Part shown: positions 2,186 through 35,900 of the stretch, in pieces
How positions within the stretch are numbered: position 1 is the first letter of the stretch
Layout of the letters: every line of letters starts with the position of its first letter
NCBI RefSeq assembly: GCF_032854445.1
Contig: NC_088306.1
Coordinates: forward strand, 12,953,386-13,017,385
DNA from: Liolophura sinensis
Lineage: Eukaryota > Mollusca > Polyplacophora > Chitonida > Chitonidae
Length of the DNA stretch: 64,000 nt
Direction: 5' to 3'
The notes under the pieces: model-generated
The model's input: the letters and a program-made list of their open reading frames with translations, nothing else
Told to the model about the DNA's origin: nothing
Databases searched by the model: none
Translations under genes and position numbers: made by a program

Positions 2186-5100
2186 GTGAGTAAGTTAAAC
2201 TCATGTACTAAACCCAATAAGTTAAATTATATGGAAACTTAGAATAAGACATTGTAATAAGGAGCTTTTGAGTTTTGACAACATGGTGACGTTCTTTGCA
2301 TTTTGAGTACATATATACAGGAATTAATATTATCCATATAAATCAGACTTGTTTTCGTGCAATAAAAATTTTAGAGCATTTGCATGATGAGTTAGGAAAT
2401 TGAAGTCATGTTTGGTGAATAATTGTCAGTATTTTGTACAGCCATGCATGATAAACTGCAGTGATTTGCCCTGTCTTGATGTAAAGCAGCGTCAAGTTAC
2501 AGTGAACATCACCACAATGTCGTAACAATATTCAGGAACTTCTCATATCAGCACAGTATAAAGTACAGTAGCCGTTGCTTGTTGGTGCAATCCCCAGAAG
2601 CTACATGTTGTTTTGTATGACCTATGTTACAGTTGTGTGACCTATATTACAGTTGTATGACCTATGTTACAGTTGTATGACCTTTGTTACAGTTGTTCCG
2701 GAGAGTAGCGGCGGCATTACCAGGCATGGAATCTCCAGAACCCAAACAGGGTCAGAGTATCCTTTTCATCTTGTCTTTCATCCCATCTGTTCATTTACCG
2801 GCCCCGATAGCACAGTTGGTAGAGCGTCTGCTTTGGGAGCAGTAGATCCAGGGTCAATCCTGGGTTGAGTCACACCTAAGACCTTAAAGAGGCAGTTGTA
2901 GCGTCCTCGCTTGGCGTTCAGCATGAAGGGGATAGTGCAAAGACCGGTTGACTAGTATCAGTATAATGGCTTGGGCGGGGCGGCTTACTTGCCTTCGGTA
3001 ATGCATATCAGTGAAGCAGCACTAGATAAAAGAGCGGTGGAAATCCGTCCTGTAACAAGGAGGCACATTACATACACTCGAAGGATTCCTTTGTCATCAT
3101 ATGACTGCAAAATTGTTAAGTATGATATTAAACCCCAAGCACTCACTCACTCATCTATTTGGTCATTCTTAAGTCTTTTTAAACCTGATACAGCAGCCAT
3201 AGAACACAAAAGCCTGGCAGTGGAACCTGTGTATATTTGCATCATGCTGTTTGGCTTGTGGGCGTTGTTGTAATAGTGATGAAACTTTCTTAACATGCAT
3301 GTATTTGTTTCAGGGAACAGCTTAATCTAGTTACTTTTTTTCTGCGATTTTCTCAATAAACTTGTGTAAATACTTACTTTTAATCTTTCAAATAACCATT
3401 CTATGCAAAACTGCATAATTGATATGATGCTTTACCATTTTTTTTCTGTAAACTGCATGAGCGTAAGCAGGTTTCCCCCATGACCACTGAAAATCTAACT
3501 TGCGTGTAGTACTAAATGTCATTGTGTCATTGTTGCTGCTACTTGTATATGCCTGGTACATGTCTAAGTGCCCAGGGTGGGACAGCACACTAATCATCAA
3601 GCTGTTATAACCAGTAACCTGCCCCCTCCCCTCCTTTCATGAATGCTTCTGCATATATACATGGTTATACATGTAGTCAACAGTCATACTCACTATCCAA
3701 GTTAATGCTTACATGTTCTTCAGGGTGAATTAGTGTGATTAAAGTTGTTCTGTAGATTCTTATAAATCAAGAGGATGCGTTGAAGTGGCATATCATGCTC
3801 GTGCAGAGGTTGACAGAGATAATTTACAATTATATATTTAATTATGGTCATGTATTGTTTACTGATGAATGGCTGTGTATGTAGCTGTATAGTCAGATTC
3901 ACTACAGTCATGACAGCAGCCATATCAGACTGATTTATGAATGAGTGAGGGGTTACTGTTAATGAGGGACAGAAAAACAGAGGAAGGATGTACAATGTGA
4001 GGATAAAAAACTTAATAGCATGTGAATATGTTTAAAAAACATGACTTCTAAGCTGTTGGATTACCATTTAGCTACATGTAGTACTGTACAACAGATTTAA
4101 TTCTAGGTTAGTAGATAATGCTGAAAATTGAAAAAGTGGTCCCCTACTCTGTCTATATTTATGCAGTTCTGCTTTCTGTTATTAATTCTGTACAGTACAG
4201 CCTTGCTCCAACCTCTCAGTAGACTGCAGGTCTCCTGGGTGTTTTTTTTTAAGGGAAGCAGGATTATGGCTGGCTGTACTGTGGGTCAAGTCTGATTAAC
4301 TAATAACAGTATTAGAGAAAGGACTTAAAATGCATCGTTGGCAAACAGTGGTGATTATTCCGTCCTTTCTCGGAGTGACCTGCATACTTTACTAAGTGAA
4401 GTTATTGAGTGGATCTAATGGATAATAACACTAGTATTTGTGACTACCCTTCTTGGCTATGGCACTGATTTTAGAGCAGAGGATGCTGTGAGTTTTGAAG
4501 TGGCTATCACAGCCAAGAACCTAATCAGCAGCAATATATGCCAGTTAGACTCTTCATCCAACTGAAGTCATGGCAGGTTGTGCACTGGTAGACATTTTAT
4601 GGTGAACCTGCATTTCTGCTCTAGAATCTGTGCTTATCCGAAATATTTCATAACACTATCACATGTACAAGTTTATCAAAAAACACCTTCTAAATGACAT
4701 CCACCAATCTGATACTGGTGCATCTCCATGTGTGCTGATGCCGGGTGGTTGAGAAATTGCCTCTTCATAAAAGTATAAGAAAGTCACACAAAAGCAAACT
4801 AGGTTTGACAAACAGTTCATATCTTTCCATCCTCTGCATGTTAAACGGAGTATGTGGAGATGGAAGGCAAACTAGGTTTGACAAACAGTTCATATCTTTC
4901 CATTCTCTGCATGTTCCATCCTCTGCATGTGGAGTTTGATTGACTGATGCATCCCGATTTGTGAAGTTTGATTTTGATTTTGCATGCTGTTTATCCTGTC
5001 ATGCTAAGTATTCATTACAGGAAGTAGTAAATGTAAAAAAATACCTCCTTTCCTCTGGCAACAATCTGCTTATGGTCGTGGGTTTTCCCGGGCTCTGCCC

Positions 5101-32900: not shown

Positions 32901-35900
32901 TATGATCAGCCGTGAAGTTCACATACTGGCCAGCGATGTCTTTATTATTTCCTGGCTTGGATTGATGACGGTGCTTTGAGAGAAAATCAACAGGATTATC
33001 CTCTCCTGGCTGGTATATAACTGATACTGCATGGTCGTAACTGCCATCTGGATGTTGAGACTGTGGCTTGTGGTATCAAGTGTTTTGTGGTCTGTCACAA
33101 CTGTTAAATGGGTTGTCAAAGATATAGATGTCAAATTTTTCACCGGCTCAGACAACGGCAAGTGCCTCTCGGTCATTAAGGAGTATTGCTGTTCACTGTC
33201 TGATAATGTGCTGCAGATATATGACTGGTTGAGTTAAAGTGCCACCAGTTAAAATCTAGACGCTTGTTCCAACTATGTAGCACAAATATGACACAACAGG
33301 GTCAGAAGGACGTTCCGAAGAAGTGATGCTGACTTCGTTATGCCAAGAAAACTCTCTACAGAAGCTGGAATCTCGGGCACTGGCATGTTCTTGATGTCAT
33401 GAACTTTCTAAACATCTGGAGAAAATGTAAATTCGATGAATGATAGTGAGGCATAGGGTAAAGTTCCTACCTTTTCAGACTTTTAAGAGCCATGTACGAA
33501 CTGTAATTACATCATTTACGTAAAATGAAATTTCACATTTATTTTGTAGAGTTTTTATCAGAGGACCATTTCCTACTAACCGATTTTGTCGGACAGAGGT
33601 TTTACCAAGTGGAAATAAACACTGGAAAAATATGGGGGACTTTTCGACCGAATGCTTTTTCAACAGCCCTCGCCGTGGATCCTGAGAATAAGAAAGTCTT
33701 CTGGTCTGATTATCTGCGGAAAGAAATAAGGTCGAGTTACCTGAATGGGAGCCAAGCCACCACCCTCATTACCACAGGTATTGTACTGAAGGTCAAGTAA
33801 ATGAAGTTTAAGGGTACATACAGTCTTAAATAATGTGTCCCTCAGCTGAAAGGCGGCAGAGAGCAGTGTCCAGAAATACTTCAACGTTTTTTTTCCCATT
33901 TTTCTTATCAAATGAATTCCGCAAAAGCAGTTTGTTTCCTGGGTTCTTGCGATCATCCTTCCCAAAGCTTACTTTTACATTATTTTGAGCAATAATAGTT
34001 CATGAAAACGTGTGAGAATGATCTGAAGGTACATGTAGTTCATCAGAGATAATTAACGGAAGATAACGTTCCAAATGTCCCGTAAACAGATAAGGGAAAT
34101 CATTTCGAAGGCAGTGATGTCATATCACAGCACTTATATATGGTCTCTGAAAAGCCTCTGAAATACTAAAGAACAGTGGTTTGGGGTAAAGTTTTGAAAG
34201 GTGCTTTCCGTGTCACTTACATTGTTGCATAGTTCATCTTTAGTTCAAACAGACAAATCAGACCAGTGGAACGTCAAGCTCTAAACTCGAACAATCACTC
34301 TCTCAACGAAAATAAACTTTTAAAATTCCATTGCAATGCGGAATTTGCTGTCTTATACATTATTAAGACATTGTTATGATCTAAAACGTTTGTTTCTCAG
34401 TTCTGTATCTTTGAACTTTATATGACGTAACATACATAAAAAAATTCTGCAAATGCAAGGTAGTATGACACCTATTGTTTTTTTTTTTGTTTTTTTTTGC
34501 CTCGCCGTTCTTCTTTTTTTCAGGGCAAAGGGTACGCTGGTCGTCTCGCTTTTCTTCCCCGGCATTGCTGTTTTGTGTTAAGATAGAGAACATACTGGTT
34601 TTCTCGCTGTTCTATCCTTACTTTGTTGTTTTTTAGTTGAAGGTACAGAGAACGCTGGTCGTTTTGCCGCTTCTTCCAAAATTTTGCTGTTTTTGGGTTT
34701 CAGGTAGAGAACACGCTGGTTTTCTCGCTGTTTATTTCCATGATTTAGCTGTTTTTGTGTTGAAGGCACAGGACACGCTGGTCATTTGCCATTCCTCCCT
34801 AGTTTTTGCTGTTTTTGTGTTGAAAGTATAGAGCATGCTGATCGTCTCGCTGTTCTTCCCTGGCTTTGCAGTTTTTGTGTTGAAGGTACAAAGCACGCTG
34901 GTCATCCCGCTGTTTTTCCCTGATTTTTACTGTTTTTGTGTGAAAAGTACAGAGAACGCAGATCGTCTCTCCGTTTTTTCCTAACATTGCTGTTTTTGTG
35001 TTGAAATTACAGAGAACGCTGGTCTTCTCGCTGTTCTTCCCTGACTTTGCTGTTCTTGTGTTGAAGGTACAAAGCTTACTGGTCGTCTCGCCTTTCTGCA
35101 TTAGCTTTGCTGTTTTTGTGTTGAAGGTAGAGAGCATGCTGACCGTCTCGCCCTTCTACACTGGCTTTGCTGCTTTTGTGTTGAAGGTACAGAGCACGCT
35201 GGTCCCCTCGCCGTTCTTCCCTGTCTTTGCTGTTTTTGTGTTGAAGGTACAGAGCGCGCTGGTCGTCTCGCTGTTTTTGCTATTTTTGTGTTGAAGGTAA
35301 AAAGCTTGCTGATCGTCTAGCTGTTCTTCCCTGGCTTTGCTGTTTTTGTGTTAAAGTTAGAGAGCACGCTGGTCGTCTCGCCCTTCTACACTGGCCTTGC
35401 TGCTTTTGTGTTGAAGGTAGAGAGCACGCTGGTCCTCTCGCCGTTCTTCCCTGTCTTTGCTGTTTTTGTGTTGAAGGTACAGAGCGCGCTGGTCGTCTTG
35501 CCGTTTTCCCCTCGCTTCGCTATTTTTGTGTTGAAGGTACAAAGCTTGCTGGTCGTCTCGCTGTTCTTCCCTTGATTTTCTGTTTTGGTGTTGAAGTTAG
35601 AGAGCACGCTGGTCGTCTCGCCCTTCTGCACTGGCTTTGTTGTTTTTGTGTTGAAGGTACAGAGCATGCTGGTCGTCTTGCCGTTTTTCCTTAATTTTGC
35701 TGTTTTGTGTTGAAGGTCCAGAGCACGCTGGTCGTCTCGCCGTTGATTCTGTCACCGGTAACATTTTCTATTCAGCCTTTAACCGAGCAAAGGGGAATCA
35801 CACCAGGAGTTACATTGCTGTAGTGTCAGCCGATGGCCAGTCTAGAAGAATGATAGTATTTGGCTTGAACTCCCCACGAGCTGTGGCTTTACACCCTGGT

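Follow-up and report, generated by a model that had tools for sequence, protein, structure and literature searches.

Minisatellites that copy splice junctions in genes of the chiton Liolophura sinensis

Junction-copying arrays at the locus

The stretch of DNA considered here, referred to as the window (G000:C12:12953386-13017385 of the chiton Liolophura sinensis, 64 kb), carries exons of a RAB6 gene and of an LRP-like gene, and in these two genes three minisatellites repeat a splice junction. Features are given on the forward strand unless stated otherwise, and arrays were detected with Tandem Repeats Finder (TRF) and then checked against the sequence. The first array (20 bp x 4.2; 2613-2696) lies across the acceptor of a RAB6 exon (2693-2750, placed by sequence and a match to Rab-6A). 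The motif TTACAG closes each full copy, and the array continues into the first 4 nt of the exon (TTGT, exon start at 2693), such that 4 nt of exon belong to the repeat unit and the last array copy provides the acceptor. The RAB6 exon pair aligns near-identically to solved Rab-6A.

The other two arrays reside in the LRP-like gene, whose EGF and YWTD-propeller exons match LRP2, LRP4, and LRP6. EGF exon 2 (FXa_inhibition/EGF; 31377-31496), delimited by Pfam, boundary calls, and LRP matches, has as its donor the first copy of an array of 55 bp x 12.1 (31481-32143), established by TRF, sequence, and a genome search. The unit consists of the final 16 nt of the EGF exon (CGGACATGTGTGACAG) and 39 nt of intron, and the donor GT is kept in all 11 further copies compared. 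The largest array (60 bp x 20.3; 34534-35744), established in the same manner, crosses the acceptor of a YWTD-propeller exon (35716-35905), which is supported by its reading frame, its phase with the upstream exon, a donor call, and LRP matches. Here, the unit comprises 29 nt of exon and about 31 nt of intron, the last copy furnishes the acceptor and reaches 29 nt into the exon starting at 35716, and the AG is kept in 16 of 19 further copies.

With positions deduced from reading frame and splice signals, the three arrays in the two genes appear to copy authentic junctions, and TRF and sequence thus confirm the preliminary description, according to which arrays begin or end at the RAB6 acceptor, the EGF 2 donor, and the propeller 3 acceptor and copy these sites. 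One complete copy, the outermost one, stays with the presumed authentic exon; all others are intronic and mostly bring an extra GT or AG. The exon is the likely source of the copies, because the shared nucleotides encode conserved protein, and the intronic copies would be its derivatives. The window donors are uncertain for the RAB6 exon at 2092 and for the propeller exons at 33550 and 36243.

A sample of splice junctions

The genome searched comprises 609,464,459 bases in 632 contigs; it was published as that of Liolophura japonica (PMC11068029), and the species was later corrected to L. sinensis (PMC12441733). A sample of 115 loci (296 kb) with 589 called junctions was compiled from domain exons with predictable splice phase. 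The main set originates from profile searches with PF00057, PF07645, and PF00084 (150 matches listed for each), from which 60 stretches (237,258 bp) were selected for dense matches; of 218 domain coordinates taken from the 450 listed matches, the 216 within these stretches were used for rebuilding the hidden Markov models, which returned 277 domain matches with 244 acceptors and 251 donors, i.e. 495 junctions, called from the DNA itself and nothing else. The Ras set was built from 60 of the 150 listed PF00071 matches in 55 stretches (58,628 bp), where 94 of 95 eligible junctions were called. An array was regarded as straddling a junction if it covered at least 3 nt of exon and at least 8 nt of intron, with an overhang not exceeding one period.

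A junction-copying array was found at 14 of the 589 called junctions (2.4%), namely at 11 of 495 in the main set (EGF, LDLa, and Sushi exons) and at 3 of 94 in the Ras set. The latter number would be 4 as called; it excludes L075, the true donor of which lies 20 bp upstream and 12 bp outside the array. The array at L069, which abuts an acceptor without copying it, was not counted either. The suggestion that the pattern recurs beyond the window is borne out in so far as such arrays occur in EGF, LDLa, Sushi, and Ras genes; their excess over site-blind duplication is weak, as discussed below. The events concern 8 donors and 6 acceptors, with an exon overhang of 11-93 nt in the sample and of 4-29 nt in the window; an overhang of more than one period was seen at no main-set junction, though a one-period maximum is part of the definition. 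None of the 78 main-set arrays lies wholly inside a domain exon. An echo test independent of TRF, which searches for repeats of the 24 nt at a junction, recovered all 14 events at 19 of 24 matches, 13 of them with a centred test window and L057 with an intron-weighted one.

At locus L002 (9591-9931; G000:C9:34395591-34395931) the junction-spanning array includes 93 nt of an LDLa exon. Domain scoring took one copy of the array for an LDLa domain in its own right (E 1.7e-8), whose donor equals the real one in quality, and such arrays can therefore create false exons in automatic annotation.

Fate of the copies

The three window arrays and the 14 sampled ones, with L075 left out, hold 103 further copies, 89 of which keep their GT or AG; the rate at other positions predicts 84.0. 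The extra splice sites are thus not being purged, but they are not clearly maintained either. Since the period is a multiple of 3 in only 5 of the 17 arrays, there is no sign of frame selection. For the EGF exon 2 array, splicing at the second donor would add 55 nt and shift the frame, and from the third donor onwards an in-frame stop at 31553-31555 would be included. These numbers bear on the proposal that selection maintains the copies because they serve as alternative splice sites or can give rise to new introns or exons. GT or AG does persist in most copies, and AG|GT in the EGF 2 and propeller units could act as a dual-specific site of the kind reported to be used in human tandem-repeat genes (PMC10809524). 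Yet retention hardly exceeds that of other dinucleotides, the periods show no bias to multiples of 3, and the EGF 2 donors would disrupt the message in the way just described, which makes selective maintenance very improbable. Frame-preserving or selected alternative sites were ruled out by the periods and by a retention close to expectation.

In view of the tandem cores of some bivalve mobile elements, one might consider a different origin, in which pieces of a mobile element or of a satellite family became inserted at junctions. However, the genome search, which skips very common words, returned 5 matches for the EGF 2 unit and 10 for the propeller unit, each of them in the unit's own array, so that neither unit has the copies elsewhere in the genome that a dispersed repeat would have, and both contain coding sequence of the gene itself. 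For these two of the three window arrays, a mobile-element origin is thereby largely refuted, and as an account of the arrays in general it is hardly credible.

Relation to known systems

Minisatellites of a comparable kind, termed "mirage", were described in amphioxus, in Adh3 and the globin genes BflGb6 and BflGb9 (PMC3087553), as well as in troponin C and PGBD5 (PMC3902484). Common to amphioxus and chiton are minisatellite-like repeats across an exon-intron border, at a donor or an acceptor, with the splice signal copied; the reported units of the mirages measure 10-72 bp and 150-160 bp. In amphioxus many, though not all, repeats carry the splice signal, and reverse-transcription polymerase chain reaction suggests that splicing of the genes concerned stays normal (PMC3087553); haplotype length differences and somatic instability are cited as well (PMC3087553, PMC3902484). 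In the 3 window and 14 sampled arrays of the chiton the unit spans the exon-intron border, as predicted from the sequence, and the splice signal is carried by the 89 of 103 further copies counted above. The chiton differs in being a mollusc and not a cephalochordate, in that a sampled frequency (14 of 589) can be set against a null expectation, and in that its arrays are known from a single assembly.

Internal tandem repeats at exon-intron borders have also been reported from human segmental duplications, with 27 intron modifications and the capacity to create introns (PMC2812944). They share their location with the chiton arrays; the human repeats alter transcripts, whereas the chiton arrays are features of genomic DNA as it has been read. 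In the potato RdRp gene, an intron was gained by a tandem duplication crossing the intron-exon border (PMC4974935). Duplication across such a border is shared with the chiton, but a single duplication led to a new spliced intron in potato, while the chiton carries multi-copy arrays within existing introns. Among the papers listed by literature searches there was neither a mollusc case nor a genome-wide survey of junction-spanning minisatellites. The chiton arrays are thus a mollusc instance of a kind already described in amphioxus, with a border-targeting process as a possible addition.

Site-blind duplication or preferred seeding

The arrays are probably best understood as mirage-type minisatellites, i.e. 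as products of largely site-blind tandem duplication in which a junction fell by chance within the unit; they would have expanded into the intron and be tolerated there. The competing view, possible though rather doubtful, holds that junctions are preferred seeds, with some feature of exon borders (short AG/GT repeats, nucleosome or R-loop boundaries, or transcription-coupled breaks) raising duplication about 2-4 times. The preliminary description had proposed that array ends be compared with splice sites genome-wide; made on the sample, this comparison gave a weak excess only, with 11 events in the main set against 6.3-6.8 expected and, with the Ras set included, 13-14 against 8.9.

In the main set the expectation is 6.76 with random non-exonic positions (P=0.08), and the Ras set has an expectation of 1.96 by circular shift. 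Against splice-like intronic decoys there is no excess (acceptors: 2.05% real, 1.84% decoy; donors: 2.39% real, 2.41% decoy); this control covers the main set, and some of its intron positions may fall within true junction arrays. A blind-placement null, in which each array was collapsed to one unit and placed blindly and exon-interior placements were removed, expects 6.28 events in the main set and 2.63 in the Ras set, together 8.9. Before correction for L075 and L002 the observed number was 15 (P=0.024). After correction it was 13 (P=0.093), or 14 with L002 (Poisson P=0.069). L002 was counted as an event; its array is unclassified in the corrected null, because a second copy, scored as an LDLa domain with its own donor, gave a false junction. 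For the 13 events the ratio amounts to 1.46, with a locus bootstrap of 0.81-2.13. With P about 0.07-0.12 for 13-14 events, the process targeting exon borders that the preliminary description had envisaged is not established; the tolerance of arrays at exon borders, which it had also offered, fits the sample.

Array coverage does not speak for preferred seeding either, since in the main set it drops towards junctions, from 15.6% at 600-1000 bp to 2.5% within 10 bp. The Ras set has a coverage of 4.9% within 10 bp and 10.6-13.0% at 100-400 bp, with lower values past 400 bp, where most stretches end. A general enrichment of arrays beside exons was considered and rejected: 14 arrays lie at 0-50 bp (12.1 expected), 11 at 50-100 bp (11.3 expected), and 14 at 100-200 bp (19.4 expected). 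This applies directly to two further arrays of the window whose closeness to exons had been thought noteworthy. Both were found by TRF and sequence. One (24 bp x 32.7; 1256-2038) ends 53 bp short of the RAB6 exon at 2092; the other (78 bp x 3.5; 20482-20753) is separated by 173 bp from the propeller exon at 20927, a distance that shrinks to 136 bp when its degenerate tail to 20790 is included. They are plain intronic minisatellites that copy no junction, and such distances are ordinary.

Several observations weigh against strict site-blindness. By circular shift the main set has 11 events against 6.39 expected (P=0.048). Arrays with at least 3 copies straddle junctions 12 times against 5.25 expected (P=0.003), a post hoc result for one of four subsets tried (copies, long period, short period, score), while those with fewer than 3 copies do so once against 3.66. 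In the echo test the ratio is 1.34-2.01 over thresholds and frames (12-19 observed, 8.9-10.1 expected), including some hits from neighbouring homologous exons (L017). About 15 of the 495 main-set junction calls are probably false (two domains in one exon, or a repeat copy scored as a domain); 14 of these concern domains less than 60 nt apart, which probably share an exon, and none of these 14 is among the 14 events. The null expectations include all 15 and would be slightly lower without them. The two gene spans of the window contain 10 arrays, of which 3 lie across a junction where 0.4 would be expected (P=0.005); this is the discovery set, in a window chosen for these arrays. Tolerance itself, in the sense of correct splicing, is presumed for all genes considered.

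The same direction is taken by a genome-wide count of the donor word AGGTAAGT. Tandem pairs of this word number 762 at periods of 16-46, 1374 at 48-78, and 1458 at 88-118, compared with 534, 1124, and 874 for the reversed control word, and with 875 and 921 at periods 88-118 for a dinucleotide-matched control word and its reverse. The donor word is therefore 1.22-1.67 times as frequent in tandem pairs as the controls; three control words enter the comparison at periods 88-118 and a single one at both shorter spacings, and a long array is counted many times. As a single word it is slightly rarer than its control (26,582 and 29,090, respectively). When distinct clusters were counted by hand among the first 100 listed matches each, the donor word had 21 of them in 31.6 Mb of contig C1 and one of the control words 14 in 51.3 Mb (P=0.007). 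The link to true donors is indirect, because only 4 of 298 called donors have the exact word.

Taken with the subset of at least 3 copies, the word count, which agrees in direction, hints at a real, if modest, excess at junctions. A mild extra bias to junctions, about 1.5-2 fold, is possible and could come from longer survival as well as from real seeding. It is unlikely that molluscs share with lancelets a genome-wide process that raises the seeding of minisatellites at splice junctions to 2-4 times what blind placement would give.

A model for tolerance

Under largely site-blind duplication, the arrays can be rationalized as follows. Tandem duplication, by slippage or by unequal exchange after break repair, would hit transcribed DNA largely regardless of exon borders, and selection would remove arrays inside exons. 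An array spanning a junction would leave the exon intact and grow into the intron. Its copied junctions would supply either donors or acceptors, never both, and by exon definition such copies should escape recognition as exons, so that the intron would be removed with the entire array inside it. Junction-spanning arrays may thus survive because an intact exon remains and because sites of one type cannot define an exon.

Other features of the window and the genome

Two further large arrays of the window, at 43853-44716 (94 bp x 9.2) and 27936-28421 (169 bp x 2.9), lie at no called exon border. The region at about 2800-3154 looks, when read by eye, like a short interspersed nuclear element derived from a transfer RNA, with a tRNA-like head; its part from 3000 has at least 42 further genomic matches of 83-95% identity (40 of 3988 candidates scored). 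On the reverse strand, an open frame at 60979-61647 contains an F-box domain, together with a SPRY match just below the curated cut-off.

Elsewhere in the genome, the first two listed copies of a 61-bp tandem array at G000:C1:2084435-2084867 each look like a complete mini-exon (TTTACAG ... CTAGAG|GTAAGT), and the array could consist of micro-exons in tandem. At G000:C8:8805352-8880456, EGF_CA matches occur in several pairs of identical score, which suggests recent tandem gene duplication. At G000:C1:12461988-12651833, three Sushi/LDLa sets with near-identical scores lie about 90 kb apart; they would be useful for dating the gain of arrays among recent paralogues.

Biological meaning

Junction-spanning minisatellites are extended by these data from a few lancelet genes to a mollusc, where they were measured at about 2% of splice junctions in the sampled families. 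Gene annotation may be misled by such arrays, as illustrated by the LDLa copy at L002. Should a border-seeding process prove true, intact splice signals would be repeated in tandem in thousands of introns, a lasting reservoir from which new introns and alternative exons could arise. If the splicing machinery passes over 3 to 20 repeats of a splice site, most of them intact, the introns concerned would be natural experiments on how the spliceosome chooses its sites.

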